From positions 1 through 38,926 of the IMG/VR virus record IMGVR_UViG_3300044624_001725: 38,926 bases of DNA. One strand, given 5' to 3'. A program made the translations under genes and the position numbers. This document shows positions 3,131 through 38,926 of the stretch, in pieces (positions within the stretch are counted from its first letter, which is position 1; each line of letters begins with the position of its first letter). Source of the DNA: a virus. The notes under the pieces were generated by a model. That model worked only from the letters and a program-made list of their open reading frames with translations. It made no database searches and was not told the origin of the DNA.

Positions 3131-3475
3131 TTATTCCGCGCCGATTACGCGTGGGCGGTTCGTTTCAGCGGTGCGAAGCGCTGCCTTTGCAGCCTGGGCG
3201 GCAGTGTAAGAGGCAAACGCCGGGCCGGCCTTAACCTGAGCGATAGCGGCGTTAACCATATCGAGCTTTTGCTGATCTAAGGCCAAGTGGCCGACGCTGG
3301 CGACGATAGCCGGGTTGGCGGCGAGGCGAAGCGGCTTAACCTCGCAGGCTCTGGTGAACTTCCCGGCGCCTTCGCACTGGAAGGCAATTCCGAATGTGTG
3401 GTTGTCAGTGAAGGCCAGCATGGAAATCGTCGCGCCGGAGGCGAAGGTGATTTGGGTTTTGTCTGCGCTGTTCAT
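3131..3475 (-). CDS. Hypothetical protein, first gene of leftward cassette A
   Basis: A 114-aa protein starting MNSADKTQITFASGATISML. The first half looks like a small beta barrel or sandwich (alternating segments up to FGIAFQCEGAGKF); the second half is Ala-rich helical. There is no SD: the ATG lies 6 bases after a TATAGT -10 box, so the mRNA would begin at or next to the A of ATG. The first bases of the gene and its promoter form a 22-bp direct repeat with cassette B. Function unknown. Confidence 0.75.
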   Translation of the reverse strand: MNSADKTQITFASGATISMLAFTDNHTFGIAFQCEGAGKFTRACEVKPLRLAANPAIVASVGHLALDQQKLDMVNAAIAQVKAGPAFASYTAAQAAKAALRTAETNRPRVIGAE

Positions 3476-3481
3476 ACTTTA

Positions 3482-3510
3482 ACTATAAACCAACGCTGGA
3501 TTACTGTCAA
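3482..3510 (-). promoter_or_regulatory. Sigma70-type promoter for leaderless cassette A
   Basis: On the minus strand TTGACA (3510-3505), a 17-bp spacer and TATAGT (3487-3482) form a near-consensus promoter. The -10 box ends 6 bases before ATG 3475, so transcription is predicted to start at the start codon. The -10 to start-codon block (3466-3487) is identical over 22 bp to 4265-4286. Confidence 0.85.
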
Positions 3511-3517
3511 CAACAAA

Positions 3518-3697
3518 ATGACCCGTCGCGCATTATTTTTTCTCGCCGCCGCTGACGATAAGCCCGCACCCGTCAGCGAGCAAGCGTGGAACGACTTTGC
3601 GGGCAGGGCAAACTACTACGCGGAGCAGTTGAAGCTCGGCATCATCGACCTGAAGGCATGGGCGGCGGTGCTGAAAGCGTGGAAGACGTTGCGGTAG
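3518..3697 (+). CDS. Small hypothetical protein (59 aa) between the leftward cassettes
   Basis: A rightward open frame, MTRRALFFLAAADDKPAPVS to LKLGIIDLKAWAAVLKAWKTLR, with protein-like composition and a short hydrophobic N-terminus. There is no SD and no convincing promoter on this strand. It is divergent from cassette A and overlaps the end of cassette B's last gene by 56 bp, the same overlap seen between the HELLH gene and cassette A. That parallel gives some support, but it could be non-coding. Confidence 0.4.
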   Translation: MTRRALFFLAAADDKPAPVSEQAWNDFAGRANYYAEQLKLGIIDLKAWAAVLKAWKTLR

Positions 3698-4334: not shown

Positions 4335-6110
4335 ATGAAAACCACCATGAAACTCTTCGCTGTCTTCCTCGGCGCGGTCGCCGCCTGGGGGCAGCAAGTC
4401 ACGATCAGTGATAACCTGCCAAACGCCGTAGGCGGCGGCGATTGGACCGGGCGCATTACGGTCACGCTCAATAGCCCTGGCCGGGCCTCCTACGGGTCCG
4501 TCGCGCTGTCCGGGTGGCAGTATGTTGTTTGTGTTGGGACCACGGGGAGCGATTGCTCTACGACCACAGTGGCTGGCGTGGTCACACTTCCGCTCTATGC
4601 CACCACTACGCTCACGCCGAACGGCCTCTCCTACTCCGCGCGATACCAGCCGACCAAGGGCGCGGCGCGCACAGAAACCTGGGTGGTCGAGCCATCCGAT
4701 GCCACGCTGGCCGGGATTATCACAAGTGACGTTCCGACGCCGACGACGACATTCCAGACATCGCAACTTTTGCAGGGAAGTGCAACCAGCGGGCAGTGCC
4801 TCGCGTGGAGCGGCACCGCATGGGCGCCCGCTGCCTGCGCATCGGGCGGTGGCTCCGGCACTGTCACCAGCGTGGCGGCAACCGTGCCGTCTATCCTGTC
4901 GGTTGCCGGATCGCCCATCACGACCAGCGGCACGCTCGCGCTCTCGCTGGCAACGCAGACAGCCAATACCATCTTCGCCGGCCCAACCTCGGGCGGCGCC
5001 GCAACGCCGACGTTCCGCGCGCTGGCATCGGCCGACATCCCGGCCAATGCGGCGAACACGTCAGGCAACGCGGCCACGGCCACGGCGCTGGCCGCCAACG
5101 GCGCAAACTGTTCCGCGGGAAGCTTCCCGCTGGGCGTCGATGCGTCCGGGGCCTCCGAAACCTGCACAGCCCTCCCAACCACGATCAGCGGCACGGCCAA
5201 TGAAATCACGGCGTCGGCGAGTACGGGCGCGGTAACGTTGTCGCTGCCTTCGACAGTCAACCTCAGCGCGAAAACCCTCCGCGTTCCCAACGGCATCTTC
5301 CTTCCCGGCGCCTGCACCGTCGGCGACGCGTATATGGACACGGATGCGACGACGGGCGCGCGGTGGTACCTGTGCGAGTCCACGAATACCTGGGTGGTCC
5401 AAGGGGCGGCGTCTGGCGGGAGCGTGCTGCGCACCACCTACGCCTCTCTTCCGGCGTGCGGTGGGAGCAACACCAATTACCAATACGTGCTGACGGATTC
5501 GATTTACAGCGCGCACTGCAATGGGTCCAGCTACGCCTATTGGTCTGGGCAGAAGTACATTCCGACTCTGCCGTGGAGCAACGGCACCACCTTCGGGACC
5601 GGAGCCACTGTTACAGCCACGACTGGTAGCGTTTTATTTGACGCAGGATCTCCGACAGGTGGAGACTCTATTCGCGCCGCTATCAAAGCCATACCAACCG
5701 CACCTTACACGATCATCCTCGACTTTGATATGTCTCAGGCTGGAGCCGTTGGTTCGTCGTCATGCGGGCTGGTAATCACGGACGGAACCACCGCCGCATC
5801 GAACAAAGTCATTACGCTGATGCAAAGCTACATCGGCCTCAACATGACCAAGCTGACGAACGCGACCACTTGGAACTCGAATTACATCGCCTACGCACAA
5901 GCGACTTCGCGCAATAAGTTTAGCCTTAGGTTAGTCGACGACAATACCAATCGTACTTGGTCAACCTCAACTGATCGAATCAACTGGACGCAAGTCTCTC
6001 AGCAGTCTAGGGCCGATTTTTTGACCGCCAGCCATTACGGCTACGGGTGCAATATGACTGGTGTTTCCGGTTACGTCACAATGGTTGTAGAGGGACTCTA
6101 TGCCCAGTAA
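4335..6110 (+). CDS. Secreted-type tail fibre / adhesin-like protein
   Basis: A 591-aa protein with AAAGGAAA upstream. It opens with a Sec signal-peptide-like segment (MKTTMKLFAVFLGAVAAWGQ). The middle has low-complexity Ser/Thr/Gly/Ala repeats typical of phage fibre shafts: a SGQCLAWSGTAW module, then GSGTVTSVAATVPSILSVAG, FAGPTSGGAATPTFRALASA and ANTSGNAATATALAANGANC. The C-terminal 170 residues look like a beta-sandwich head (from about SVLFDAGSPTGGDSIRAAI to the end). Paired cysteines recur. It shares the SGQCL module and the signal peptide with the large fibre at 33796-38016. Host binding is the likely role. It stands apart from the main tail cluster, next to the leftward cassettes. Confidence 0.75.
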   Translation: MKTTMKLFAVFLGAVAAWGQQVTISDNLPNAVGGGDWTGRITVTLNSPGRASYGSVALSGWQYVVCVGTTGSDCSTTTVAGVVTLPLYATTTLTPNGLSYSARYQPTKGAARTETWVVEPSDATLAGIITSDVPTPTTTFQTSQLLQGSATSGQCLAWSGTAWAPAACASGGGSGTVTSVAATVPSILSVAGSPITTSGTLALSLATQTANTIFAGPTSGGAATPTFRALASADIPANAANTSGNAATATALAANGANCSAGSFPLGVDASGASETCTALPTTISGTANEITASASTGAVTLSLPSTVNLSAKTLRVPNGIFLPGACTVGDAYMDTDATTGARWYLCESTNTWVVQGAASGGSVLRTTYASLPACGGSNTNYQYVLTDSIYSAHCNGSSYAYWSGQKYIPTLPWSNGTTFGTGATVTATTGSVLFDAGSPTGGDSIRAAIKAIPTAPYTIILDFDMSQAGAVGSSSCGLVITDGTTAASNKVITLMQSYIGLNMTKLTNATTWNSNYIAYAQATSRNKFSLRLVDDNTNRTWSTSTDRINWTQVSQQSRADFLTASHYGYGCNMTGVSGYVTMVVEGLYAQ

Positions 6111-6137
6111 CCGCGGCGCTGCCGCCAGGAGTGAGTA

Positions 6138-6443
6138 ATGCTACTTGCCACCGTCCTTCTCGTCTGGCTCGACGCCATCAACCCGCCTGCGACGACCTAC
6201 CACGTCTACCGGGCCGCTGGTGTCTGTGCCACCACATCCCGGTTTGATCGCGTCACAGTGGACCCTGTGGCCGTCAAAACCTACCGGGATTCGCCGGGGC
6301 CGGGTAACTGGTGCTACCGCGTCACGGCGCTGTCTAGTGGGCTGGAATCGCCACCATCGGCAGCGGTGGGCATGATCGTTGCTCCGGTGGCTCCAACTGG
6401 GCTCACAGCCACGCCCGCCGTCGCCGAAGCATCACCGCCGTGA
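6138..6443 (+). CDS. Fibronectin type III-like protein
   Basis: A 101-aa protein. Residues about 1-80 read as one FN3-like beta sandwich: ATVLLVWLDAINPPATTYHV, then YRAAG, KTYRDSP and NWCYRVTALSSGLESPPSAA. A second domain start follows (VAPTGLTATP). The frame meets TGA at 6441-6443 but remains open beyond it (see next entry). The gene follows the fibre by 27 bases, so a fibre-associated, carbohydrate- or protein-binding role is likely. Start ATG 6138 has a weak AGGAGTGAGTA upstream. Confidence 0.65.
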   Translation: MLLATVLLVWLDAINPPATTYHVYRAAGVCATTSRFDRVTVDPVAVKTYRDSPGPGNWCYRVTALSSGLESPPSAAVGMIVAPVAPTGLTATPAVAEASPP

Positions 6444-6617
6444 CTGGTCGCGCCTGATGGATTCGTCGGCCGCTACGGCCGCAAAGGCGACACGTTCTAT
6501 TGGCCTGAGGGGGTGCCTGATCCGACGATCACCGGCACTGGCTGGGGGCTGGTGCGGGGGTTGGATAAAGCTCCGCCCGGAACCACATTTCACGACATCA
6601 AAGCCGCTTCACCGTAA
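6444..6617 (+). other. In-frame coding-like continuation after TGA of the FN3 gene
   Basis: The frame of 6138-6443 stays open for 57 codons after TGA 6441-6443, to TAA 6615-6617. The translated text is protein-like: VAPDGFVGRYGRKGDTFYWP, then GWGLVRGLDKAPPGTTFHDI. The final TAA sits inside the terminator hairpin, as is usual for real gene ends. There is no ATG, GTG or TTG near its beginning. Either the UGA (followed by C) is read through, or it is a nonsense mutation or assembly variant, or a short gene starts at an unusual codon. Confidence 0.45.
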
Positions 6618-6635
6618 CTGGTGGGGCGGCTTTTT
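6600..6635 (+). terminator. Intrinsic terminator after the fibre/FN3 genes
   Basis: AAAGCCGC (6600-6607) pairs with GCGGCTTT, with an inner CACC/GGTG extension, followed by TTTTT (6631-6635). It separates the late accessory genes from the early operon. Confidence 0.85.
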
Positions 6636-6687
6636 CTCGTTTACGGGTGCTATATAGCGGTTTGTTTGCGGCGCGTGAGGTTTAGTG

Positions 6688-6716
6688 TTGACCGGCGCGG
6701 CTGGGTGGGTTAGCGT
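6688..6716 (+). promoter_or_regulatory. Early promoter, leaderless arrangement
   Basis: TTGACC (6688-6693), a 17-bp spacer and TAGCGT (6711-6716), then 6 bases to GTG 6723. The spacing is the same as in both leftward promoters, so the first early mRNA is also predicted to start at its start codon. It lies just after the terminator at 6600-6635 and heads the whole early operon. Confidence 0.65.
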
Positions 6717-6722
6717 TGGGTT

Positions 6723-6890
6723 GTGAGCAACACAGGAACCACACAAGAGCAGGGGAAGGCGGTACAAATTACGATACTGTCAAGCGTTCACAAGGACATC
6801 ATTAAATGCGCCAAAGAGCTTGGAAAGCACCCTGGGCGCCTGGTCGAGTGGGCTTGGGGTGTTGCAAGCAAAAAGGAGAAGGCAAAATGA
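6723..6890 (+). CDS. Small early protein (55 aa), predicted leaderless
   Basis: From GTG 6723 to TGA 6888-6890, which overlaps the next ATG. The protein starts SNTGTTQEQGKAVQITILSS and continues VHKDIIKCAKELGKHPGRLV, with a Lys-rich C-terminus. The start codon lies 6 bases below a -10 box. Its last codons carry the SD (AAAAGGAGAAGG) of the next gene. First gene of the early region; function unknown. Confidence 0.6.
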   Translation: MSNTGTTQEQGKAVQITILSSVHKDIIKCAKELGKHPGRLVEWAWGVASKKEKAK

Positions 6891-7120
6891 ACGGAACACA
6901 TCGCTATCCGTCAAACGCCGCCGCGCTACCGCTGCCAGCCGGGGCAAAGCGCGCGGGGGAACTGAACGACCGCTTGATTAAGCAAATGGACGCCGGTCCG
7001 GCGTATCACGACCTCTGGACGCGGGCCATTCGCGCCAACGATCGCGGCGACTTTGACGCGGTTGAGGTGCTACTTGAAGAGGCGCGCGCCATGGTTCAGG
7101 ATAACGGAGGCGCGCTATGA
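6887..7120 (+). CDS. Hypothetical early protein (77 aa)
   Basis: ATG 6887 has AAGGAGAAGG upstream and overlaps the previous stop. The protein is helical and acidic at the end (DRGDFDAVEVLLEEARAMVQ). An earlier in-frame ATG at 6806 lies inside the preceding gene and lacks an SD, so I prefer 6887. It is coupled to the next gene by ATGA. No family recognised. Confidence 0.65.
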   Translation: MNGTHRYPSNAAALPLPAGAKRAGELNDRLIKQMDAGPAYHDLWTRAIRANDRGDFDAVEVLLEEARAMVQDNGGAL

Positions 7121-7465: not shown

Positions 7466-8499
7466 AGCAATTCGTCCACGCCGCGCGGTTTGATGGGCTG
7501 GAGCGGCATGTGCCGGAGGTTTCGCAAGACCCGGCACAACGCCAAGGCTTCATCGGCGGCACCGACGTCGCGCATGTGCTCGGCCTTGAGCCCTACGGCT
7601 GCGCGCGCCGGCTGTGGTACCAGAAGACCGGGGCGCCGCCTGACCGTGACTTCCGTATGACCGGGCCGATTGTAGCCGGGAAGCTGATGGAGGACGGCGT
7701 AGCGGAAATGGTCAAAGAGCAAACGGGATGGAAGATCCGCCGCAAGCGCGCGACCGCCAACGGCCACGAACTGCAACGGGTTGACCGCGCCATCGTCGGG
7801 CACGAATGGGGACCTGGCGTGCTCGAAATCAAGACGGTAAGCGACCGGGCCTACTGGGACTGGAAGCGGGCTGGCGTGCCGCTGGGCTATCTCATGCAGG
7901 TGCAGTGGTATATGCGCGTGCTTGGCTGGTCGTGGGCTTGCCTCGCCGCGCTGAACCGGGAGACCGGGCAGCTCCACTTGTTCACCTTCCAGGCGAACGA
8001 ACAACTCATGGCGGCTGTGGCTAAAAAGGTCGATTGGTTCGTGTCGCACCACGTAGACCAGCGCGTGACGCCCGCATGGCTAGAGGAGCGCGACGGGCGC
8101 TGTGAGTCCTGCCAGTGGGAGCCGACGTGCCAGATGGACGAGTGGTCCGCGGTGAGCGACCAAGGGTTAGTCCAAATCGAGGGGCTGCCACCACTGGTGG
8201 CAGAGTACCAGCGGGCGAAGGATCTTATTACGCGTGCGGAGAAAATGGCCGACATTCTCCGCACGGGCGACGAATCCGCGGAGGACGAAGCGCACCGGCT
8301 TGGGATTGACGCGCTGATGGGCGTTAATGAGCAGGCGGCGGCGGGGAACGGCGAGTATGTGAAGTTTCGGGTGGTGGAAACTTCGCGGGTCGATACCGAC
8401 GCGCTGAAGGCGAAATACCCGGACGTTTATGCGGACGTGGTAAAGCGGTCGGTGAGCCGGCCGTTGAAGATTTTGAAAATAAAGGGAGCAAAGCAATGA
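7459..8499 (+). CDS. YqaJ/Cas4-like recombination exonuclease with putative Fe-S cysteines
   Basis: A 346-aa PD-(D/E)xK nuclease, first member of an exonuclease-annealase-SSB set. The YqaJ/lambda-exonuclease order is visible: GGTDVAHVLGLEPYG (33-47), ELQRVDRAI (Asp109), VLEIKTVS (Glu123, Lys125) and GYLMQVQWYM (about 143-152). It should degrade duplex ends to expose single strands for the RecT-like protein. Unusually, Cys48 sits in GCARRLWY and three more cysteines form C-x2-C-x5-C (215, 218, 224), the spacing used for 4Fe-4S clusters in Cas4 and AddB. ATG 7459 is chosen over 7408 because the earlier start lies within the preceding gene. Confidence 0.88.
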   Translation: MVEQFVHAARFDGLERHVPEVSQDPAQRQGFIGGTDVAHVLGLEPYGCARRLWYQKTGAPPDRDFRMTGPIVAGKLMEDGVAEMVKEQTGWKIRRKRATANGHELQRVDRAIVGHEWGPGVLEIKTVSDRAYWDWKRAGVPLGYLMQVQWYMRVLGWSWACLAALNRETGQLHLFTFQANEQLMAAVAKKVDWFVSHHVDQRVTPAWLEERDGRCESCQWEPTCQMDEWSAVSDQGLVQIEGLPPLVAEYQRAKDLITRAEKMADILRTGDESAEDEAHRLGIDALMGVNEQAAAGNGEYVKFRVVETSRVDTDALKAKYPDVYADVVKRSVSRPLKILKIKGAKQ

Positions 8500-9200
8500 G
8501 TACGACACAGCCATCGGCGCAAGCCGTGGAAATGAATCAGGTTCAGGAGATGGAGCGGATTGCCACGCTATTGGACCGCGTGACAGACCAGACGATGCGC
8601 CAGGAGGCCGAGCGCATGTTACTCGACCGGGCGCAAGCCTACCACGTCCGCAAGCGGCCGGGGTGCCAGAATCAGGACGAGGTGCAAATGCGGATTGCCG
8701 CTGGGCGCCCGTTTGGGCTTGACCGGGATACATCACTGAATGCCTTTGACGTGATTCAGGGCGTGGTGGCGATGCGGGCGAGCCTCCGCGCCGGGCTTCT
8801 CCAGCGGCACGGCTGGCACTGGCTGTTTGCGAAGCACGACATGAGTGAGTGCTCGCTGATCGCCACGAAGGACGGTCGGCCATACCTCAACGCTGAAGGC
8901 AAACCGCACATCTTCACCTACACCATGGACGACGCGAAGCGCGGCAAACTCGACGGCAAAGAGAACTGGAAGATGAATCCCATGGACATGCTGTTCGCGC
9001 GGTGCATCACGCGGCTTCAGCGGCGCGTCTGCCCGGCCGCTACGCTCGGCATGGATATCCCGGACACGACCGAACCGGTGACATTGGAGATGGTCGTGCA
9101 GGAGACGGAGCAGCAGCGCGTGGCGAGTAAATCGGCGTCCGCGCTAGACGCCCTCGAAGCCGAACTGATGCGCGAACCCGTGGCGGTGGCGAATGTTTGA
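8496..9200 (+). CDS. recT: RecT-like single-strand annealing protein
   Basis: A 234-aa protein with AAAGGGAG upstream, starting in an ATGA overlap with the exonuclease. The annealase core is visible: RIAAGRPFGLDRDTSLNAFD, IQGVVAMRASLRAGLL, FTYTMDDAKRGKL, and NPMDMLFARCITRLQRR near residues 160-175. It would coat and anneal single strands made by the nuclease, allowing recombination-dependent repair or replication. The C-terminus is an acidic, poorly ordered tail. The family is clear; the exact subfamily is not. Confidence 0.85.
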   Translation: MSTTQPSAQAVEMNQVQEMERIATLLDRVTDQTMRQEAERMLLDRAQAYHVRKRPGCQNQDEVQMRIAAGRPFGLDRDTSLNAFDVIQGVVAMRASLRAGLLQRHGWHWLFAKHDMSECSLIATKDGRPYLNAEGKPHIFTYTMDDAKRGKLDGKENWKMNPMDMLFARCITRLQRRVCPAATLGMDIPDTTEPVTLEMVVQETEQQRVASKSASALDALEAELMREPVAVANV

Positions 9201-9669
9201 GCATGGCGCGTGGTACACGGGCGGCATCGTCGCGGTCGAGTACATCAAGTCCGAAAAGAAGGGCACGCCAGGCCTTCAGATCACCGTTGAAGTGTCCGAC
9301 CGTGGCACGATCACGGGCGTCTGGTGGCTTACCAACTCGCTCGTCAATAACCCAGACGACAAGGCGGCGAGCAAGGTTCCGCAGTGGGAGGCCGCGCAGA
9401 TCCGCTGCAAGCAGTTTGGCTGCACGGAGGATGGCTTAGGCCACCAGGAGACATGGCTCCTGCACATCCAAAAGACGTTCATCGGCCAGCAGGCGTCAGT
9501 CATGGCCGAAGTCAACCAGTACGGCGACACGTCTGCGCAGGTGGTTTGCAAGCCGAAGGTGGGCGGCGGCGGTGGCTTTGCTCGGGCAGCGGCTACGGCG
9601 TCACCATTTGCGGCGCGGCCGGCCAACTCGGACCCGTTCGCGGTTGGAGACGACGACCTGCCATTTTAG
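9193..9669 (+). CDS. ssb: Single-stranded DNA-binding protein (SSB-like)
   Basis: A 158-aa protein with an N-terminal beta-barrel-like domain (about 1-120; ITVEVSDRGTITGVWWLTN), a Gly/Ala/Pro linker (VGGGGGFARAAATASPF) and the acidic tip DDDLPF, nearly the DDDIPF tail of bacterial SSB that docks replication and repair partners. It overlaps the annealase gene by 8 bases. The barrel itself does not look like canonical SSB, so it may be an analogous phage family. Confidence 0.75.
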   Translation: MFEHGAWYTGGIVAVEYIKSEKKGTPGLQITVEVSDRGTITGVWWLTNSLVNNPDDKAASKVPQWEAAQIRCKQFGCTEDGLGHQETWLLHIQKTFIGQQASVMAEVNQYGDTSAQVVCKPKVGGGGGFARAAATASPFAARPANSDPFAVGDDDLPF

Positions 9670-10097: not shown

Positions 10098-10277
10098 ATG
10101 GAAATAGCAACGATTGGACTGTTTTTGCTGGGCGGCGGCGCCTACCTGCGCTGGAAGCCAACGCGGGCGCAGGTGTGGAACTGGATCGCGGCCTGGGCGG
10201 CGGCGAATCGTGACGCGGCGATTACGCGGGACAAGATGAAGGGCGTGTATTTGAATGCGGAGGTGCCGAATGGCTGA
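10098..10277 (+). CDS. Small membrane-anchored protein (59 aa)
   Basis: MEIATIGLFLLGGGAYLRWK forms a short N-terminal hydrophobic anchor, followed by an amphipathic Trp/Ala-rich helix (VWNWIAAWAAANRDAA). ATAGGGAC precedes the ATG. It overlaps the next gene by 8 bases. Function unknown. Confidence 0.55.
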   Translation: MEIATIGLFLLGGGAYLRWKPTRAQVWNWIAAWAAANRDAAITRDKMKGVYLNAEVPNG

Positions 10278-10656
10278 GAGGACGCTGGCAGAGATAGCGC
10301 TTGAAGCATGGTGGGAGCGCGACGAGGCCCAGGCGCACGCCGCGGACCTGAGAGCGGCGCTGGATCTAGCGCGAGTCCAGTTTGATTGGATCAGGCAGAA
10401 CTCAAAACCGCCCGTCAACGGCTACTCTGAATCGGCGATTTGGGCGGTGGTCGTAACTGCGAGTAGAGATGCTTCGTCCGCCCTTGCCCGCACCCCGGCG
10501 CAGTCGCTGGGACGGCTGAAGGCGAAGGCGTCGAGAGAAATGGCGCGATTATTTATGGCGACCAATAAAAGCGACCTGTCGTACTACCAGCGCGATCTAG
10601 CCGCCCGGTTCTGCAAAGCCGAAGCCGACCGACTGGAGGCCCTCGATGGACGCTAA
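10270..10656 (+). CDS. Hypothetical helical protein (128 aa)
   Basis: Starts MAERTLAEIALEAWWERDEA; the N-terminal half is a likely coiled coil (HAADLRAALDLARVQFDWIR). The C-terminal half is basic (RLKAKASREMARLFMATNKS and YYQRDLAARFCKAEADRLEA). ATG 10270 is used because it overlaps the upstream stop; 10255 is an alternative. The end repeats the phrase RLEAL, also found at the start of the next gene, where the two overlap. Function unknown. Confidence 0.65.
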   Translation: MAERTLAEIALEAWWERDEAQAHAADLRAALDLARVQFDWIRQNSKPPVNGYSESAIWAVVVTASRDASSALARTPAQSLGRLKAKASREMARLFMATNKSDLSYYQRDLAARFCKAEADRLEALDGR

Positions 10657-16873: not shown

Positions 16874-17365
16874 ATGACACGATTTGAGAACGTGGCGGTA
16901 GAAATCGCCAAGGGCGCGGCCGTAGATAAACAAACGGCGCTGGCGATGGGTGGCGGGCAAGCGTATGCGCCGCCACAGGCCAGCGGCCAGCCGACCTATT
17001 ACGCGCCCCCACCGCTGCGGACGGTGCCTATCGACCCATCGTTTACCGACCTGACCGGGAATAAATTCGGGCGGCTGACCGTGCTGGGTTTGGCAGCCGC
17101 AGGGATAGACGGGAAGAAAAAGCGCTGGGCGTGCCGTTGCACCTGTGGAAAGTACTCTACCCATCGACCGTCCGCGCTGTTAGCCGGAAATGAGGACCGG
17201 TGCCATGATTGCCGTATTAAACGAGCGGCAACCGATGGCATCGGCGGGCGCTGTGTTGTGTGCGGTGGGCTCGCTCGGTTTATGCCCTATTGCGGCAAGT
17301 GCGGGCAAGCGCGCGGGCGGGAAGCACCTAGCGTTATGCAGATGGCCTTAAAAGGAGGCGTATAA
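16874..17365 (+). CDS. FGRL zinc-domain DNA-binding protein
   Basis: A 163-aa protein with a Pro/Tyr/Gln-rich linker (about 28-52) after a helical start. The centre is DLTGNKFGRLTVLG, then WACRCTCGKYSTHR and EDRCHDC, the zinc-binding FGRL domain common at the N-terminus of phage HNH endonucleases. A further CVVC...CGKC pair follows (about 130-148). There is no HNH catalytic motif, so this is a free-standing binding domain or the remnant of an endonuclease. The same domain occurs twice in 20536-21273. TAATG overlap links it to the replication gene. Confidence 0.7.
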   Translation: MTRFENVAVEIAKGAAVDKQTALAMGGGQAYAPPQASGQPTYYAPPPLRTVPIDPSFTDLTGNKFGRLTVLGLAAAGIDGKKKRWACRCTCGKYSTHRPSALLAGNEDRCHDCRIKRAATDGIGGRCVVCGGLARFMPYCGKCGQARGREAPSVMQMALKGGV

Positions 17366-18408
17366 TGGCACGCGCCCGTAACATCAAGCCGGGATTCTTC
17401 GAGAGCGACGACCCGGCCAAGGTCGGCTATCCGCAGCGCCTTCTGTGGATTGCCATGTGGACGCTTGCGGACAAAGAGGGCCGCTTGGAGTACCGCCCGA
17501 CGCGGCTCAAAAAGTACGCCTTCGGCTTCGATCCGGCGACCGTGGAAGACGTCGCGCAGTGGGTTCACGACCTCCACGACGCCGGGCTGATCGTCCTCTA
17601 CCCGGTCGGTTCGGTCGAGGTAATCCAGTGCGTGAACTTCCTGAAACACCAGCGGCCGCACTATAAGGACCCGGAAAGCGAGTATCCGCCGCCATCAGGC
17701 CAAATCAATCATAGGCCGATGATAGAGCAAAATCCCAGGATTCCCCAGGATTTGCCTCTATCATACGTCAATGATAGGCCGATTCCCCAAAGTTCCCCAG
17801 GATTCCCCAGGATTCCCCAGGATTTGGGCCTATCATCGGCCAATGATACGTCAATGATAGACGATTTCCCCAAAGTTCCCCAGGATTTGCCTCTATCATT
17901 GGCTGATCATAGGCCGATTCCCCAAAGTTCCCCAGGATTTGCCTCTATGATAGGGGGGTCTCCCGGTATGAATGTGGAATGTGGAATGTTGAATGTGGAA
18001 GGGGGAAGGGGGAATGGCGCGCTGACGCCCGCCCCGCCCCCGCCTCAGCAACTCCGCATCGACGACAACGGCCCCGAACCAGACGAGCTTTTCCAGACCG
18101 CGGCGAAGTTCGCATGTGAGCACCTGCCAGCAGGCGGCGATGTCGGACTAACGGCATCGGCCATGCGCAGCGAGTTCCAGAAGTCGGCCAGCTTCGAGGG
18201 CAACCCGGCGGGCTTCTGCCTGAGCTTCACCGCCAGCGTCCGCAAGTGGCGGGCGGCATACGACGCAAACCCGGATCTGCGGACGAAGCAGGCGCAATGG
18301 TGGACCCGCGACGGCACGTACTCGCAATCACCGCCAGCACCACGGGCGCCGCGAAGGTTTGGGCCGGTGGACCTGAAGGCCGGGCTGGAGGTGGACGATG
18401 CCCTGTAA
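17365..18408 (+). CDS. Replisome organiser / O-like initiator
   Basis: A 347-aa protein with AAAGGAGG upstream. Residues about 1-110 form a winged-helix domain seen in phage replication proteins (ARNIKPGFFESDDPAKVG, QRLLWIAMWTLADKEGRLEY, VIQCVNFLKHQRPHYKDP). Residues about 113-200 are encoded by iterons and read as repeats (IPQDLPLS, DRPIPQSSPGF). The C-terminal domain (about 230-310) is helical (FQTAAKFACEHLPAGG, FCLSFTASVRKWRAAY) and may recruit helicase. As in lambda O, the protein would bind the origin inside its own gene. No DnaB or DnaC homologue is seen, so host helicase is likely used. Confidence 0.75.
   Translation: MARARNIKPGFFESDDPAKVGYPQRLLWIAMWTLADKEGRLEYRPTRLKKYAFGFDPATVEDVAQWVHDLHDAGLIVLYPVGSVEVIQCVNFLKHQRPHYKDPESEYPPPSGQINHRPMIEQNPRIPQDLPLSYVNDRPIPQSSPGFPRIPQDLGLSSANDTSMIDDFPKVPQDLPLSLADHRPIPQSSPGFASMIGGSPGMNVECGMLNVEGGRGNGALTPAPPPPQQLRIDDNGPEPDELFQTAAKFACEHLPAGGDVGLTASAMRSEFQKSASFEGNPAGFCLSFTASVRKWRAAYDANPDLRTKQAQWWTRDGTYSQSPPAPRAPRRFGPVDLKAGLEVDDAL
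17705..17955 (+). repeat. Iteron cluster, probable replication origin inside the initiator gene
   Basis: Four copies of a 22-bp unit CCCCAGGATTTGCCTCTATC plus AT start at 17743, 17815 (variant), 17878 and 17930 (variant). Two copies of AGGCCGATTCCCCAAAGTTC continuing CCCAGGATT start at 17776 and 17911. CTATCAT/ATGATAG inverted pairs recur (17758-17777, 17830-17860, 17945-17953). Spacing and mixed direct/inverted structure fit initiator binding sites, like ori-lambda within gene O. Confidence 0.75.
17968..18015 (+). repeat. Short tandem GAATGTG/GGGGAA repeat in coding sequence
   Basis: GAATGTG-type heptads (about four, one with GTTGAATG) run into two GGGGGAA units. They are translated in frame as MNVECGMLNVEGGRGNG within the initiator. 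The low-complexity repeat lies just downstream of the iterons; it may be replication slippage or a short repeat picked up from a host genome. Confidence 0.7.
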
Positions 18409-29103: not shown

Positions 29104-29602
29104 AGTCGTAGACCCTGGCGGCAAGCGCGTCGGGGCTGCGTGGGAAATCGCACGCGCGGAAGTACACGACGGTTTCCGGTCCGCTGCGCTGATTGTCCGT
29201 GATAAAGCGAGGGCGGGCGCAGCATCAGCGGGAGCCCCGAGGCGGCTGTATTCCGGCGATAAGCCGGCCATCTTCGCATTCTCTGATTTCAACGCGGCCA
29301 CCGACGACAAGCGGAAGCGCGCGGTGCTGGTCGGGATGCGTACAGGGCTCTCCTCGCAAGCAAAAGACCCGCGCCTGTTCATCGCATGGGGCAAGGGCGC
29401 AACGCGCCGTAAGGGCGGCACTGTGGCCTCGCGCGGGCTATCTATGTCCCTCGCTGCTTTGTTCGAGCGAGGCCGTTCCGACCGACGCATTAAGCCAGGC
29501 CGCTTCTTCCGCGCCGCTATCTTCTCAACCCGTTCGACCGTCGCCCGCCTTCTCACCTCAGCCTACGCGAAAGCCGTGGGAACGATCAACCGAATCAAAT
29601 AA
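29027..29602 (+). CDS. HK97 gp10-like minor head-tail protein
   Basis: A 191-aa basic protein. EIARAEVHDGFRSAALIVRD, KARAGAASAGAPRRLYSGDK, then MRTGLSSQAKDPRLFIAWGK and RRIKPGRFFRAAIFSTRSTV match gp10-like tail-joining proteins. The gene normally stands before the tail terminator; here it follows the chaperones and starts within 28936-29103. It would help head-tail assembly or tail completion. ATG 29027 has only a weak SD. The stop overlaps the tape-measure ATG (TAATG). Confidence 0.7.
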   Translation: MAKKWGAKFDAARLREAKAAFRAIAEVVDPGGKRVGAAWEIARAEVHDGFRSAALIVRDKARAGAASAGAPRRLYSGDKPAIFAFSDFNAATDDKRKRAVLVGMRTGLSSQAKDPRLFIAWGKGATRRKGGTVASRGLSMSLAALFERGRSDRRIKPGRFFRAAIFSTRSTVARLLTSAYAKAVGTINRIK

Positions 29603-32178
29603 TGGCCAACGACATCACATATCGGATTACAGGCGACCCAACCAGCTTTAAGGCTGCTATGGCGCAGGTAGAAGCCGTTACGGCATCCACCACCGGCAAA
29701 GTTAACGCCGCCTCCCGTAGCGTCGAAAGCCTTGGCGCGAAGTTATCGTCCGTTGGTTCGGCCATGACGCTGGGAATCACCGCTCCTGCCGTGGCGCTGG
29801 GCGTGGCTGTCGTCAAGACCGCGGCTGACATGGAGGCGCTGAAAGCTGGACTGGGCGCCGTCACCAAGGAATCCGGCTCACTCGAAACCCAACTTGCACG
29901 CCTAAAGGAAGTGGCGAAACTACCCGGCCTCGGGCTGAAAGAAGCCATTCAGGGCAGCACGTCTCTCCAGGCGGCAGGCTTTTCCGCGCAACTCGCGGAG
30001 CGGTCACTGAAGGCATTCGGCAACGCCCTCGCCACCGTCGGCAAGGGCAAAGCGGAGCTTGACGGCGTGACGCTCGCGCTCTCGCAGATTGCCAGCAAGG
30101 GCAAAATCAGCGCGGAGGAAATCAACCAGCTTGCCGAGCGGGTTCCGCAGATCCGCGTGGCCATGAAAGACGCCTTCGGCACCGCTGACACCGAGGTGCT
30201 GCAAAAGGCCGGGATTGGCGCTGAAGAGTTTGTAACCAAGGTCGTCGCGCAGCTTGAAAAGCTGAAGCAGGTCACCGGCGGGACGAAAAACAGCTTTGAA
30301 AACCTGGGCGATGCGGTGACGCAGGCGGCCGAGCGCGTTGGGCAGAAGCTCCTGCCGACCGTCACGGCGGTGATCCCGAAGATAGAAGCCATGGTAACCG
30401 CCGCGGCCGACGGCGTGGACGCCTTCACGCACCTATCTCCGGAAGCGCAGAACCTTGCGTTGACGCTGGGCGGCGTTGCTATCGCGGCCGGTCCGGTGGT
30501 TTCCGTTATCGGGAAGGTGTCTACCGGGATCGCGTCAATGCAGGTCGTAGCGGGCGCGGCGGGCGCGGCTATGGTCGGTCTGTTTGCCGTCACGCTGGTG
30601 GCGGCTGTGGCGCAAACGCTTTCGAGCATCGATAAGCTGAACGAAAAGTACAAGGCGCTGAAAGAGTTTCAGGACCGGTTGAAGACCGGGCAACAGGATC
30701 TCATCAAGGGTTTCGAGGACAACGGCAAGCCGCTCGGGAATGGAGCGCAGATTGCAAACGGCGGCGTATTCGATCAGCCGGCCAGCGCAGCGAAGCGATT
30801 TGGGATTGACCTGAAAGCTCTATCTACTGAACTTGGGCTGTTTACGGGCGAAGCGAAGAAGGCAGAGCCGCCAGTGAAGGCGCTGGGCGCGGCAATGGAA
30901 AAGGCGTCGAACACAATCAAGGTGTCTAGCGTTGCCGCCCGCGTTGCCGTAATGGATTTCTCCAAGGGATACGGAGAAGTGGCGTCATCCATTATTTCTA
31001 AAGGCTCTCTGGTGTACGTGGAAGGTCTCGAACGGGTAAAGGCTGGCGTTGGACGCGCAAAAGATGCGGTGTTTGATTTCATCCACGCGAGCGATGGGCT
31101 AGGGAAAAAACTCGAACTCAATTCGAGTGCGTTTGAGGGCCTTGCGCGGCGCTCGGATGAGTATGCCACATCTCTAAAGCGGGCTATTGCGGAGCAAGAG
31201 AAACTTGTCGCCAATGACAACGTGCGAGCTATGGGCGCGGGTACTCCGCTTGGTTTCCCCGAGCTGCCAACTACATGGGGCGCGAAGGATGCAGCCAGCG
31301 ATATGGGAATTGAAACGGAATCGGCTCGCGCGAAGCGCATCGCCAATCTCCAGCGCAACGCCGATTTACTGCGAGAGGCAAACCGCCGTGGCGATCCGAA
31401 TGTATCGGGAAACATGGTCATCGAGGCCGAAGAAAAGCTGAAGGCCGCTATCGAAGGCACTGGGCGCGCAGCGACCACCTCCGCCAAAGCCCAAACCAAG
31501 GCCATGCAGCAGGTTTCCACTGTCGTCACCGACTTATCGCGCGGCATCGCCGGGATCATTTTCGAGGGCGGCAAGATGGGCGACATGCTCCAAAAGGTAG
31601 CGAAACAAGCCGGGCAGGCCATCGTGCGCGAGCTGATTGAAGGCGCGCTAACGAAGCTCTCCAAAAAGCTGCTCGATGTTGGCGGCGTCTTTGGAACGGT
31701 CTTCAGCGGCGGCACGGGTGTAGCCAAGTCGGCAGCGGGTGGCGCGGGAAGCGCTGCGGGCGGGCTATCCGGAATGCTCGGGGCGGGCGGTAGCGCGTCC
31801 TCTGGTGTCGGCGGCGCGATGGCCGCAGCCAACCCGGTCACAGCCATGGTGACTGCGGTTTCTAGTGCCGTTACTGCAATCTCCTCAGTTGTTAGCAATT
31901 TCCAATTTGCTGCCATGAACAAAACGCTTGACCTCATCGAGCACGAGGTCCGGTACAGCCAAATTCACCTCCTGCACACGCTCAACAAAGCCAACGAATA
32001 CTGGCCGCACATGAAGTCCGTATGGGAGTCCTTGATTCGCATGGAAACCGCTGGCGGCTTCGGTGGCGGCGGCGGAACGGTCAATGTATCCATGGCCGGG
32101 GCCTACCTCATGAGCGATGCCCAGATGGGCGACTTTGCCGACCGCCTAGCGCGGTTTCTGAAGGCTCGGGGTATCTAG
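29602..32178 (+). CDS. Tape measure protein
   Basis: An 858-aa protein, the second longest in the genome. The N-terminus (DITYRITGDPTSFKAAMAQV) and the block GLKEAIQGSTSLQAAGFSAQ to KISAEEINQLAERVPQIRVA are characteristic of the tape-measure N-terminal domain. Hydrophobic segments near residues 290-345 (LALTLGGVAIAAGPVVSVIG, GAAMVGLFAVTLVAAVAQTL) may insert in the host membrane during DNA injection. A Gly/Ala/Ser-rich part (about 705-750) precedes the C-terminus. By the usual 0.15 nm per residue rule the tail would be around 130 nm. Confidence 0.93.
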   Translation: MANDITYRITGDPTSFKAAMAQVEAVTASTTGKVNAASRSVESLGAKLSSVGSAMTLGITAPAVALGVAVVKTAADMEALKAGLGAVTKESGSLETQLARLKEVAKLPGLGLKEAIQGSTSLQAAGFSAQLAERSLKAFGNALATVGKGKAELDGVTLALSQIASKGKISAEEINQLAERVPQIRVAMKDAFGTADTEVLQKAGIGAEEFVTKVVAQLEKLKQVTGGTKNSFENLGDAVTQAAERVGQKLLPTVTAVIPKIEAMVTAAADGVDAFTHLSPEAQNLALTLGGVAIAAGPVVSVIGKVSTGIASMQVVAGAAGAAMVGLFAVTLVAAVAQTLSSIDKLNEKYKALKEFQDRLKTGQQDLIKGFEDNGKPLGNGAQIANGGVFDQPASAAKRFGIDLKALSTELGLFTGEAKKAEPPVKALGAAMEKASNTIKVSSVAARVAVMDFSKGYGEVASSIISKGSLVYVEGLERVKAGVGRAKDAVFDFIHASDGLGKKLELNSSAFEGLARRSDEYATSLKRAIAEQEKLVANDNVRAMGAGTPLGFPELPTTWGAKDAASDMGIETESARAKRIANLQRNADLLREANRRGDPNVSGNMVIEAEEKLKAAIEGTGRAATTSAKAQTKAMQQVSTVVTDLSRGIAGIIFEGGKMGDMLQKVAKQAGQAIVRELIEGALTKLSKKLLDVGGVFGTVFSGGTGVAKSAAGGAGSAAGGLSGMLGAGGSASSGVGGAMAAANPVTAMVTAVSSAVTAISSVVSNFQFAAMNKTLDLIEHEVRYSQIHLLHTLNKANEYWPHMKSVWESLIRMETAGGFGGGGGTVNVSMAGAYLMSDAQMGDFADRLARFLKARGI

Positions 32179-33795
32179 GTGGGCATCTCTGTTTTAATCG
32201 CCTCCACGCTGCGCAACAGCGTAACGGCTCCCGCGTCTATTTCGCTTACCAGAACACTCGGGGAACCGGCGACGTGCGAACTAGTGACCACCGACGCAAC
32301 TGGTTCAGTGGTGCCCGTCGTCGGCAACATTGTAGAGGTCCAGGACCAAGCGTCGGACGTGCAGTTTTTCGGGACCGCGCAAGAAGTCTCGACCACGCGC
32401 CGGGACCATACCGCGGCGAACGAATGCCGCCTCACTGCCACCGACCTCAACCACGCCACCACGCGGCGGCTGGCGGGCCAATACGAGTGGACCGGAAAGA
32501 CGGTGCTGTACATCGTCTCCGATATCGTCACTAACTCCCTGTCTGGTGATTTAACGGATGTTTCGCTGGTCGAAACCGGGCCAACGATTGACCGGTTCGC
32601 GGTGGACTATTCGACGGTCAAAGAAGCCTTCGATTCCCTGGCCGAAATGGCCGGGATGCGCTGGTATGTGGACGAGTTAAACCGGCTCAACTTCTTTACC
32701 CCGTCGGCCCCACCCGATGCGCCGTTTGCCATTACGGACGGGACTAACGTTTCCAGTCTATCCGTGCGAGCCACGCGCGAAGACTACTGCAACACCGTCA
32801 CCGCCCGAGTCGGGCAGGCTTTGCGCGACCCAGACGTGCAAGCCTTTGCGGGCGACGGCACCACGAAGTCATTCAGCGTTGACTACCCCATCGCGCAAGC
32901 GCCAACCGTCCGCGTCGCGGGCGTCGATGCGCTCGTCGGCATTCTGGGCGTTGATACTGGCAAAGACTGGTACTGGCAGGCCGGAAGCGCGGAAATCCGT
33001 CAGGAGGACGCGGATGCCGCGCTAGCGCTGGCCGTTGCGCTGGAAGTCACCTACGTCGGGCTGGACCTGATCTATGTCGGCGTGTCCGATACCGCCGAAA
33101 TCACCGCCCGCTCGACCGCCGAAGGCAACAGCGGCATCTACCACAAGCTGATCGAGTTAGAAGGGCAGCTTACCCGCTCCGACGCGACCACGGCGGCACA
33201 AGCCTACCTAGACGCGCATTCAGAACTGACATACGTTCTCACCGCTGAGACTAACGACTTCAAGGAACCGGACCTCCTCACAATCCGCCCCGGCGACGTG
33301 CTGTCGTTTACCCGCTCGGGCTACGGCACAACTGGCAATTTTCTTGTCCGCTCGGTCAACCTTTCCCACATGGAGGGCGTCACCGATACCGCCACCTACC
33401 AGTGGCGCGGGCGCATCGAAGCCATCAAAGGGCCACTCCTCCGCACCTACACCGATATACTACGCGCCTCCACCGCTGGCGGCGGCATGTCTGGTAGCGG
33501 GGCGGCGGTGACGCGCTCCAGCGGCGCGGGAGCGTACATCCATGAGATTGGCACGCTGACGGCGAATACTACAATTACGCCCGACGTAGCAGCCACCCCC
33601 GGCGCTACGCTTTACGTGTTCGGCAAGACCGGCGCTTCGCCTTACACGGTCAGTTTTCACGCGGATTGGTTCGCCACACTGCCCAACACCCTCATCCCAC
33701 AAGCCCCAGGCATTACTTTCGTATTCCCGTTTGTCGGACGAGCTGGCGACGGGTTGTGGTGGTTCTGCGGTTTGTCCGTCAATAACCAAACATAA
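32179..33795 (+). CDS. Baseplate hub / tail-associated protein
   Basis: A 538-aa protein from GTG 32179, immediately after the tape measure. The gp27/hub-like blocks are seen: VQFFGTAQEVSTTRRDHTAA with CRLTATDLNHATTRRLAGQY, FDSLAEMAGMRWYVDELNRL, CNTVTARVG, and SFTRSGYGTTGNFLVRSVNL. A C-terminal beta domain (GTLTANTTITPDVAATPGAT to WFCGLSVNNQT) may bind fibre. It forms the tail tip ring through which the tape measure leaves. The stop is directly followed by the fibre ATG. Confidence 0.8.
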   Translation: MGISVLIASTLRNSVTAPASISLTRTLGEPATCELVTTDATGSVVPVVGNIVEVQDQASDVQFFGTAQEVSTTRRDHTAANECRLTATDLNHATTRRLAGQYEWTGKTVLYIVSDIVTNSLSGDLTDVSLVETGPTIDRFAVDYSTVKEAFDSLAEMAGMRWYVDELNRLNFFTPSAPPDAPFAITDGTNVSSLSVRATREDYCNTVTARVGQALRDPDVQAFAGDGTTKSFSVDYPIAQAPTVRVAGVDALVGILGVDTGKDWYWQAGSAEIRQEDADAALALAVALEVTYVGLDLIYVGVSDTAEITARSTAEGNSGIYHKLIELEGQLTRSDATTAAQAYLDAHSELTYVLTAETNDFKEPDLLTIRPGDVLSFTRSGYGTTGNFLVRSVNLSHMEGVTDTATYQWRGRIEAIKGPLLRTYTDILRASTAGGGMSGSGAAVTRSSGAGAYIHEIGTLTANTTITPDVAATPGATLYVFGKTGASPYTVSFHADWFATLPNTLIPQAPGITFVFPFVGRAGDGLWWFCGLSVNNQT

Positions 33796-36700
33796 ATGCG
33801 ACAACTTATCCTCATCCTATCCGCGCTGTCTGTTTTTGGACAGGCCACAACACCGTTTAAGGTTAGCCAGGGCGGCACCACTGCGGGCGCTGTGTGGTTC
33901 CAGGAGCCGCGCGCGAGCGGTACAGACTATTTCAAGCTACGCGCCGGCGCGATGTCTGCGAATGTTGACGCGACCCTTCCCGCCGCCGACGGCACCAGCG
34001 GCCAATGCCTTTCGACCGACGGCGCGGGTCAATGGGGCTGGCGCGACTGTTCCGGCGCGTCCACGCGCTACCGCATATCAGACTACTTTTGGATTCAGAC
34101 GCCAGGCGGTTCAATCTCGCCCGGCCTCACGACCGTTACGCTCACTCCGTGCCCGTCCGGCCTGGATGCGACCGACACGAAGCTCTACGTTTACATTTCA
34201 GGCGGCACCGGTACCGCTGAAGCCGCTCCTCTATCAGTCAGCGGTGGCGCTGGTACATGCAGCAGCGGAGCGGCAAGCGGCACTATCAAATTCACCGCGG
34301 CGAACTCTCATACCGGCGCATGGACCATCCAGAACGCCGGCTTCCGCGAGACAGAGCGCATTGCCGATCACGGCGATATTTTGCTCATCACTAACGTTGA
34401 CGTTTACGAGCGAACAGTCATCCAGAAGGGCTTAACACTCGAAGGCGGTGGGGGTGGTGGCGTGCGATCAGTCATCACCGCGCACGGCGATATCGTGGCG
34501 ATCGACGTGGACCTTGCCGCGCCTGTCACCATGTCGAATTTTTCGATCATGGCGGCATCACCGCAAGTTTCGGCTGGCGCGGCGGTTCGGCTGGGCGTGG
34601 ACGGGTCAACCAATCACAACTGCGGATCGAAGATTGACAACCTGTTCATCTACCAGTTCTACTACGGCATCCACCTCAAGGACGGCTGCAAGCCGGTCAT
34701 TACGCGCAACGAGATCGCGGACTCCACGAAGTACGGCATCTACGCGCAGAATATTTTTAACCCAGACGGCGGCGACGGATTCATCGCGCACAACACAATT
34801 GGAAACACGCCAGCGGCTGATGCTGCGATCCGTTACGAAAGCGGCGGCGGGCTGAAGATCATCGACAACAAGATTCTCAACAATTTTCAGTGGGGCGTAG
34901 ACCTATACCCGAACAGCGGCGCCTCGACTGGGCAACTGTACATTACGTCGAACAGCTTTGACCGTATGAAGGCGGGCGGTATCCGCGCGTCTGGTACTGA
35001 CGCGTGGTACGGCGTGAACGTGCTTGGGAATATCATCATCGACGCTGGCGAGGACGGCACTTTTACTTGCGTGGAGTTTGCTAATCCGGGCATGGTGGGC
35101 GGCTCGTTCATCGGCAACATGTGCCAGAGCGGACAGTACGCCGTCACCGCTTCGCAGGGTACCCAGATCCGTATCGGCCGAAACAACTTTACCGGCAGTG
35201 AAGTCATCAACTCCAGCGTGGACATAGACCTCGACTCTCCGCTTGAAACCACGCACGCGAATATCCCTACCGACGCGCTGGACGGATCGGTGATGTATTG
35301 CACCGACTGCACGTCTACGGGCGCGGCAAGCGGCACAGGGGCGGCCATTTACCGGGTTAATGGTGCGTGGTCAACGTCGTCCACTGGGCTGATGAATATC
35401 AGCCAGGGCGGGGATACGTTTGGCGCTGATATGCACATCGGGACCGATGACTCGCACGACGTGTTGATCTACCGGAATAACGTACTGACTGGGCAGTATG
35501 CAGCGGGGCAAGTGGTCACATACGGATATCACACCTTCAGCGATAACGGGACGACCATGCGCATGCAGCCGGGGACTGGCGTGGGCAATTTCGGCAATTT
35601 CTCGAATCACCCGATAGACTTTTACACTGATTCAGCGGCGCGGTGGCGCCTGAGTGCAACGGGTATGCTGCATCCCTCGGTGCATGACGCCGTGGATGCC
35701 GGGTTGACCGGAACGCGAATTAGGGGCGTTTACGCCAAGTTCGGCGAGTTTTATAAGTCTGGCAGCACGGCGTCTGCGGACTACCTGACCACGCGAAAAT
35801 ACAACATCCTCGACCAGTCCGGCGGTACAGGCGTGTGGGATATTCAGGCGTCTGGTTCGATGGCTGCAACGTCATCTATCAAAATTCGGGATAACGCCGG
35901 AAGCCGCTGGCTCGAAGCTTATCGCGCCTTGGGCGGCACGCCTCTCAAATATACTTCCCTTTTCGGGCATCTCTACCCGGCAAAACGCCTCATCGCCGAT
36001 GGTGACGCGGTAGATGATTCTGTGTTTGGTGACCTCGGCGCAACCTCCGCCCGATGGGCCAACATTTACGGCGCTGCGGCTGACCTTTCCGGCGCTCTTA
36101 CGGCATCGGGCAACATCACCGGGGCCATCATCAACGCCACTGGGTCGCCTGCCTACAGGGTTGGCGGAACAACGGTCATTGATTCGGCGAGGGCCGCGTC
36201 ACTGACCAGTGCGACTGTCACTGCTGGATCTGCTGGATACATCAACCTGACGAACGTGGTTAACTCTACGCAAGGCGTCTACGGCTCGTGTATGGCGCTT
36301 TCCGCCACGGACACCGCCACCACCAATACCTACGTGGCTGGCCGCATCTGCGGGCGATACGACACGGCGTCCTTTACCGACGAACTCATCACGATCCAGA
36401 CGGCAACCGGTGTTGGCGCATACGATACGGCCATCAGTATCAAAAATCAAGCCGTCACAGTTACTGGAGTGCTTGACGCTGCGACCTTCAACGCTACCGG
36501 CTCACCAGCTTATCGCGTGAGTGGAACAACGGTTATCAACGCCAGCCGAGAGGCCACGTTTGCGGGCCTCACCATCGCCACAGGCGCGGCGTCTGGCTAC
36601 GTGTGGACCTCGGACGGTTCCGGCGTTGGCTCCTGGCAAGCGGCGGCTGGCGGGCTTCCCGTTGTGGACACCACCGGCATCGCCAAAGGCTCATCGGACG

Positions 36701-38166: not shown

Positions 38167-38430
38167 ATGCGTACCATACTCGCACTCCTGGCAATGGGCA
38201 TTGCCGGGGCGGCCGAAGCGCCGAAACCCACGCCCGCCCCCCTGAAGACCGCAGAACGTATGGCGCTGACGGAGCTTTCCGCCAAAGTCGCCGAATTGAA
38301 CAAGCAGATCGACGTGATCCTCACCGAGGCTTGCGCCGACCGCAGCATCCCCAAGGACCGCTGCCGGTTGCAACAGGACGGCACATTTCTGACGCTGCCG
38401 GAACCGCCGAAACCGGAGTCGAAAAAGTGA
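38167..38430 (+). CDS. Small exported coiled-coil protein (complete copy)
   Basis: An 87-aa protein. I prefer ATG 38167 because it begins a standard signal peptide (MRTILALLAMGIAGAAEA); an in-frame ATG at 38140 would add nine polar residues before it. The mature part is a Pro-rich stretch, then a coiled coil (ALTELSAKVAELNKQIDVIL), a two-cysteine segment (EACADRSIPKDRCRLQQDG) and a Lys/Pro tail. It resembles small periplasmic helper or spanin-like proteins in size and place, without a family match. GTGA overlap with the next gene. The same gene, truncated, opens the window. Confidence 0.65.
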   Translation: MRTILALLAMGIAGAAEAPKPTPAPLKTAERMALTELSAKVAELNKQIDVILTEACADRSIPKDRCRLQQDGTFLTLPEPPKPESKK

Positions 38431-38786
38431 TCTCCGCAAAGCTGATCCCGGCTATTCTGCTGGCTGTCGTGGCGCTGCGGGGCGAGTCGATCTGCGGCAA
38501 GGACGACCGCAACCCCACGCCGCACGTCGATCTCGTCCAAGTATCCTGCATCGACTTTGACCGGCTCCGCGCGCAGGCGCCGGACTTCCCGTGGCCGGTG
38601 GGCAGGGTGACGCAGGTCCTCGTCCACGTCCGCGAAGGCGACGCCGTGCGCGTGACGGTCGATGGCGTGCAAAAATTCGCCGATCTGATCCGGGATGCCT
38701 GGGGCCGGCTGATCGCGCTGGTGCAGTTTGACGGCGTGGAGTACAAGGCGGTGGCCGTCAAGGTCTATCGGGCGGTGGAGGAGTGA
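38427..38786 (+). CDS. Small exported protein of unknown function (right allele)
   Basis: A 119-aa protein from GTG 38427, the second allele of the gene at 137-496. Differences include GKDDRNPTPHVD (left GTDDRNPTPNID), VGRVTQVLVHV, VDGVQKFAD and a final VEE instead of VEQ. Most are conservative, and many nucleotide differences fall at third positions, which points to purifying selection. Signal-like N-terminus and two cysteines as in the left copy. Confidence 0.75.
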   Translation: MISAKLIPAILLAVVALRGESICGKDDRNPTPHVDLVQVSCIDFDRLRAQAPDFPWPVGRVTQVLVHVREGDAVRVTVDGVQKFADLIRDAWGRLIALVQFDGVEYKAVAVKVYRAVEE

Positions 38787-38926
38787 AACTCCGCACCGCT
38801 GCCGTAGTGGCCACCACCGACGACGGCGACAAGATCGGCGGGCCGTATTTTCTCCCGCTGGACACTCCCGCCAAACAAGAAATCAATGAACTAGCCCGCG
38901 AATACGGGCCGCTGGACATCAAGAAA
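38783..38926 (+). CDS. Small hypothetical protein, 3'-truncated at the window end
   Basis: From GTG 38783, identical at nucleotide level to the first 144 bases of 493-654. The window ends before the stop. Confidence 0.6.
   Translation, partial: MKLRTAAVVATTDDGDKIGGPYFLPLDTPAKQEINELAREYGPLDIKK

Follow-up and report, generated by a model that had tools for sequence, protein, structure and literature searches.

Results

Comparison of related sequences indicates that a small gene of a tailed double-stranded DNA phage is probably expressed by programmed readthrough of an in-frame UGA, which would append a small C-terminal module to an FN3 domain. This reading is well supported because the UGA is kept in every sequence found with the extension, the extension behind it is under purifying selection, and no homologous extension with a sense codon at this position was found. 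The gene lies in IMG/VR record IMGVR_UViG_3300044624_001725, whose full 38,926 nucleotides we call the window (Table 1).

Table 1. Positions in the window of the features discussed in the text.
Feature	Position	Strand	Description
Shine-Dalgarno of the FN3 gene (AGGAG)	6127–6131	+	−6.9 kcal/mol with the anti-Shine-Dalgarno over 22 upstream bases
FN3-like protein, short form	6138–6443	+	101 aa, ATG start, TGA end
Proposed recoding site	6435–6446	+	Pro codon, CCG, UGA, CTG
Conserved in-frame UGA	6441–6443	+	Next codon CTG
C-terminal extension	6444–6614	+	57 codons, LVAPDGFVGRYGRKGDTFYWP..., under purifying selection
Terminator-like hairpin	6600–6633	+	TAA 6615–6617 in its loop
TAA, end of long form	6615–6617	+	Long form 159 aa
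Same-frame ORF trio	29602–38016		Tape measure 29602–32178 (TAG), then GTG 32179–33795 (TAA), then ATG 33796–38016

Genome and gene neighbourhood

Profile searches identified the window as a tailed phage, with terminase, portal, capsid, major tail and tape measure genes; its GC content is 61%. The two ends carry a direct repeat of 636 bases (1–636 and 38291–38926; 93.7% identity, 145 bases exact), so the window is probably a nearly complete or closed genome assembled with strain variation. The small FN3 gene follows a fibre-like gene (4335–6110) and is itself followed by the terminator-like hairpin. The label fibre-like is that of the sequence-only reading and our own: the sole profile match of this gene is to a PHROG of unknown function, and it had no match among annotated phages.

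Several other features of the genome were recorded. N-termini resembling signal peptides by eye (MKLFAVFLGAVAAWGQ..., MRQLILILSALSVFGQ...) are present on the fibre-like proteins 4335–6110 and 33796–38016, and on several relatives of the former, which is odd for virion proteins. In the trio of consecutive same-frame ORFs, each stop abuts the next start. The replication initiator gene contains a 64-base direct repeat (17741–17804 and 17876–17939; 90.6% identity), and the gene at 16874–17365 has an in-frame continuation of 74 codons, with two relatives.

The short form is an FN3-like protein

The short form has a hydrophobic N-terminus and a proline-rich C-terminus ending in ASPP. Searches against Pfam (including FN3) and PHROGs gave no match, but an AlphaFold2 model compared by Foldseek indicated an FN3 beta-sandwich fold, with a best E value of 6.2e-05 and two matches below 0.001; matches were to My5 and other FN3 domains, with a TM score by target of up to 0.68 among the 50 matches listed. 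Two cysteines, C30 and C59, are invariant across 13 aligned sequences, and a divergent homologue (L053) begins with a signal-like sequence, which together suggest that the protein is exported or part of the virion and contains a disulfide.

The UGA and its immediate context are invariant

All 24 sequences found with the extension (23 viral contigs and the window) share an in-frame UGA at one position and read CCG-UGA-CU there. The eight bases CCGUGACU (6438–6445) are identical throughout, so that the codon just before the UGA is always CCG and the bases after it always CT (CTG in 20, CTA in four). The codon second before the UGA encodes proline in 23 sequences and valine in L053, and four of the 24 read exactly UGA-CUAG. 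Since only 12 of the extensions are distinct and many are near copies, the 24 sequences are not independent. A single inner TGA per record was found in ten of 11 records matched, the remaining record being a bacterial genome.

UGA is otherwise a normal stop here, because TGA ends 22 of the 45 ORFs listed as likely genes, terminase and portal included; the standard code that the sequence-only reading deduced from the gene ends is thereby borne out. Its description of the site also proved accurate: a TGA at 6441 followed by C, and a frame that stays open to the TAA at 6615 inside the terminator-like hairpin. The TGA-C tetranucleotide is not unusual, ending six of the 22 TGA-terminated ORFs, five of them besides the FN3 gene.

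Protein-level selection on the extension in frame 0

Open frames of this length are ordinary: at least 57 open codons follow 174 of the 859 plus-strand stops of the window (about 20%), and continuations of at least 57 codons lie behind ten of the 45 listed ORFs, the FN3 gene among them, several of which, judging from coordinates, continue in frame into the gene that follows. What exceeds chance is conservation in relatives. With L053 excluded, 12 sequences gave 66 pairs, from which those with zero or saturated dS were dropped. Across extension codons 1–49, median dN/dS was 0.143 (largest 0.361; median dS 0.63), and for the FN3 part it was 0.251. Selection in frame 0 held at dS up to about 1.4. 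In four chosen pairs, pS was 0.43–0.57 versus a pN of 0.06–0.12 (Fisher p 1.5e-4 to 3.6e-10), and the same pairs had no synonymous excess in frames +1 and +2. Frame 0 is also the only one of six without a stop in all 13 sequences.

As a control, we picked the in-frame continuations of seven other genes within reach of the fetched loci, four of which gave a value. Three had pN/pS of 1.35 (6806–7120, seven sequences), 1.15 (8496–9200, three) and 0.94 (2489–2830, two); those behind 3287–3697, 9193–9669 and 10255–10656 gave none. The fourth, behind 651–1016, was protein-like (pN 0, three sequences), but it has its own ATG at 1020 behind the TAA. In that stretch (651–1217), TAA GCA ATG places the start of the following small gene in frame, one codon past the stop; its 65-aa product matched no family at 0.001. 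In the same script the FN3 extension, L053 included, had pN/pS of 0.35 (12 sequences).

Other ways of using this stretch of DNA were considered and rejected. An antisense gene was suggested by one reverse frame with pN/pS of 0.33, yet this frame has stops in all 13 sequences; a +1 frameshift into the extension finds no coding signal in that frame; and an overlapping GTGA start would open ORFs of five to 56 codons whose length is not conserved.

The extension forms a conserved module of basic and aromatic character (GRYGRKG-T-YWP...GWG-VRG) that ends in TAA in 23 of 24 sequences and in TGA in L053. The window copy matched no family in Pfam or PHROGs, and copies from L053 and one other relative (L028) matched none in Pfam. 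AlphaFold2 gave no confident model of the extension alone (mean pLDDT 50.8), and the model was therefore too poor for a fold search.

Relatives and mosaic history

The extension as query retrieved 22 viral contigs, and a profile search 23, the addition being L053. A DNA pattern built from the extension motif alone, with no requirement for the UGA, returned the same 23; a looser one returned these plus a chance match (L100) that is not a homologue. By query, profile and the two UGA-independent DNA scans, no sense-codon version of a homologous extension was found among viral contigs. A comparison with relatives had been proposed in the sequence-only reading, in which a sense codon at this site would count against readthrough; it returned a UGA kept throughout and an extension conserved under frame-0 purifying selection.

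L053 has the same UGA arrangement in a different genomic place, with an extension 48% identical to that of the window. There the gene lies behind a replication initiator and before an HNH gene, in a phage with an integrase, whereas in the other 14 of 15 sequences looked at it follows the fibre-like gene. The earlier proposal of a readthrough extension on a fibre-associated protein is thus upheld in one half, readthrough being favoured by conservation and selection; its other half, which drew on adjacency to the fibre-like gene, fails in L053. Among 23 FN3 loci, 22 have both UGA and extension and one has neither: in L113 (2983–3414) an FN3 gene occupies the usual slot with an unrelated Pro/Arg-rich tail, so not all such phages need the extension. 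In contig 3300044643_002370 the extension is present and the contig end cuts off before the FN3 part.

Pairwise DNA identities diverge between the two parts of the gene. Between the window and L012, identity is 67% in the FN3 part and 87% in the extension; between L011 and L030 it is 96% and 80%, respectively. This points to FN3 and extension parts that do not share one history, with exchange near the UGA and the UGA itself kept.

Annotated phages had no match to the DNA of 5900–7000, to L053 DNA or to the L053 protein; the extension had three insignificant matches among them (best E 0.9), and the L053 protein one insignificant match among plasmids (E 0.6). Matches in genome contigs of Limnohabitans and a Bordetella MAG were discarded as 16–18 residues of another protein. 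Profile searches of bacterial genomes at E 1e-4, with about ten candidates scored per genome, matched four out of 369 genomes in one search (four places) and five out of 399 in another (six places). These matches sit in open frames of 469–6201 aa and cover at most profile positions 5–113 of 161, essentially the FN3 half.

RNA elements

We found no conserved RNA structure 3′ of the UGA (z −1.87 to +0.78 in eight sequences; covariation term −0.16). By eye, 14 of the 15 sequences inspected show a hairpin similar to the terminator-like one, the exception being L053; in the window such patterns are no commoner than in shuffled sequences (one found, mean 0.8). An Rfam match to BcKCsr2 (Burkholderia sRNA 2) at 6509–6637 spanned the full model but scored 19.2 bits, short of the cut-off of 40; it was not listed for L053, L028 or L029 (E up to 1), and we regard it as chance.

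Alternatives to readthrough

The main and serious rival is termination followed by reinitiation, in which ribosomes would terminate at the UGA and begin again at the neighbouring CUG, or at GUG as codon 2, giving a separate peptide of 56–59 residues. Weak reinitiation is conceivable because the extension of each of the 12 distinct sequences either begins with CTG or has GTG as its second codon: where the UGA abuts CTA, codon 2 is GTG. CTG is, however, a common leucine codon in GC-rich genes and would be expected at codon 1 anyway, and it is replaced by CTA in three of the 12 distinct sequences. None of the 12 has an in-frame ATG in the extension or a Shine-Dalgarno before it (−2.1 kcal/mol or weaker, compared with −6.9 kcal/mol at the FN3 start); in the window, the start-like codons are CTG at codon 1 and then GTG at codon 24. 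Nor, we infer, would reinitiation predict the invariant proline codon before the UGA. We therefore consider it unlikely. Against readthrough itself stand the lack of a conserved stimulatory RNA structure and the five other listed ORFs that end in TGA-C.

That the extension is a relic no longer made, left by a fixed nonsense mutation and now decaying, would fit L113, where UGA and extension are both missing and the tail is evidently dispensable; this is very unlikely given frame-0 selection at dS up to about 1.4 and in four of four pairs tested, and the same UGA in L053 in front of an extension at 48% identity. A conserved in-frame UGA might also encode selenocysteine, and bacterial selenocysteine insertion requires only a 3′ hairpin. 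Yet there was no Rfam SECIS match in 6380–6680 (E up to 5) and no hairpin common to the relatives, the homologues found have no cysteine at the UGA position, and no redox motif was seen at the flanks, which makes selenocysteine highly improbable. Least probable of all is genome-wide recoding, with phage or host reading UGA as sense: nothing beyond the in-frame UGA favours it, and it is opposed by the many genes ending in TGA, terminase and portal among them, and by the absence of tRNA genes from the window.

Discussion

Under the readthrough reading, ribosomes would translate the FN3-like protein up to ...Pro-Pro-UGA-C, where release may be slow, the peptide ending in proline and UGA-C being a weak stop. 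Because of this slow release, a near-cognate tRNA, most likely tRNA-Trp, would sometimes be accepted at the UGA, and translation would continue in the same frame for 57–59 codons. The short form would be the bulk product, and a less abundant form of about 160 residues would consist of the FN3 domain, a proline-rich linker and the basic/aromatic module. The extension may be a binding module wanted on a minority of copies, as with the A1 protein of Q-beta; this is a guess by analogy.

The leakiness of CCG-UGA-CU is putative here and taken from published work. Proline and glycine at positions −1 and −2 have been reported to raise termination errors (PMC11126739), a stop followed by C is described as weak (PMC4132726), and UGA is read as tryptophan in Escherichia coli at very low frequency (PMC7918605). 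Bacterial genomes contain fewer Pro-Pro-stop ends than expected (odds ratio 0.44; PMC7246954). Other reports run against readthrough: Pro-Pro-stop ranks with the most strongly stalling endings in E. coli, but the outcome given there is ssrA tagging, not readthrough (PMC7246954, citing Hayes 2002), and A rather than C after UGA promotes its misreading by tRNA-Trp in E. coli, the data for C at position +4 coming from yeast (PMC5289835). In a Mycoplasma pneumoniae reporter library, a C-terminal proline had no significant general effect on expression, with Pro-Pro lower at 0.81 (PMC7246954).

More speculatively, and in our view improbably, the arrangement might be a portable cassette of tailed DNA phages, in which FN3, Pro-Pro-UGA-CU and extension would move together, extension alleles would be exchanged near the UGA, and leakiness would come from the nascent peptide, not from RNA structure. 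Given the TAA in the hairpin loop, a readthrough ribosome ending there would cover the 5′ arm of the terminator, and transcription could then run on into downstream early genes (this would not apply to L053, which shows no such hairpin).

If readthrough does occur, standard gene calling cuts the FN3 protein short in the genomes that have it, and CCG-UGA-CU would be a small, naturally occurring system for testing whether proline at the C-terminus and UGA-C together suffice for bacterial readthrough without RNA structure. Ribosomal frameshifting is well known in tailed DNA phages, T7 and lambda among them (PMC8310308); a search of the open-licence literature found no case of conserved UGA readthrough in a tailed DNA phage.

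The closest known parallel is the coat/A1 pair of the single-stranded RNA phage Q-beta, in which the UGA of a phage protein leaks at low level (1/15) with tryptophan (PMC8067240). The domain added in A1 begins with a polyproline stretch (PMC8067240), a likeness to the present gene in arrangement; Q-beta, however, is an RNA phage and the protein its coat, whereas here the genome is that of a tailed DNA phage and the protein a small FN3 protein. Mammalian readthrough at UGA-CUAG (OPRK1, OPRL1, AQP4, MAPK10; PMC4132726) shares UGA-CU with our sequences, but it involves eukaryotic ribosomes and release factor, 20 of the 24 sequences here read UGA-CUG, and the likeness may be chance. A published survey of in-frame stops likewise used dN/dS-based evidence; many of the events it describes are short-lived, with dN/dS of 0.66–0.82 around the stop compared with 0.14 for the extension here. 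The bacterial RF2 gene (prfB) also uses a UGA-C site on purpose (PMC5289835), but there the event is a frameshift, whereas the FN3 gene and its extension keep one conserved frame, with no coding signal in +1. Programmed readthrough is already known, and the differences here lie in the type of genome and in the signal, which seems to reside in the end of the peptide and in the bases that immediately flank the UGA.
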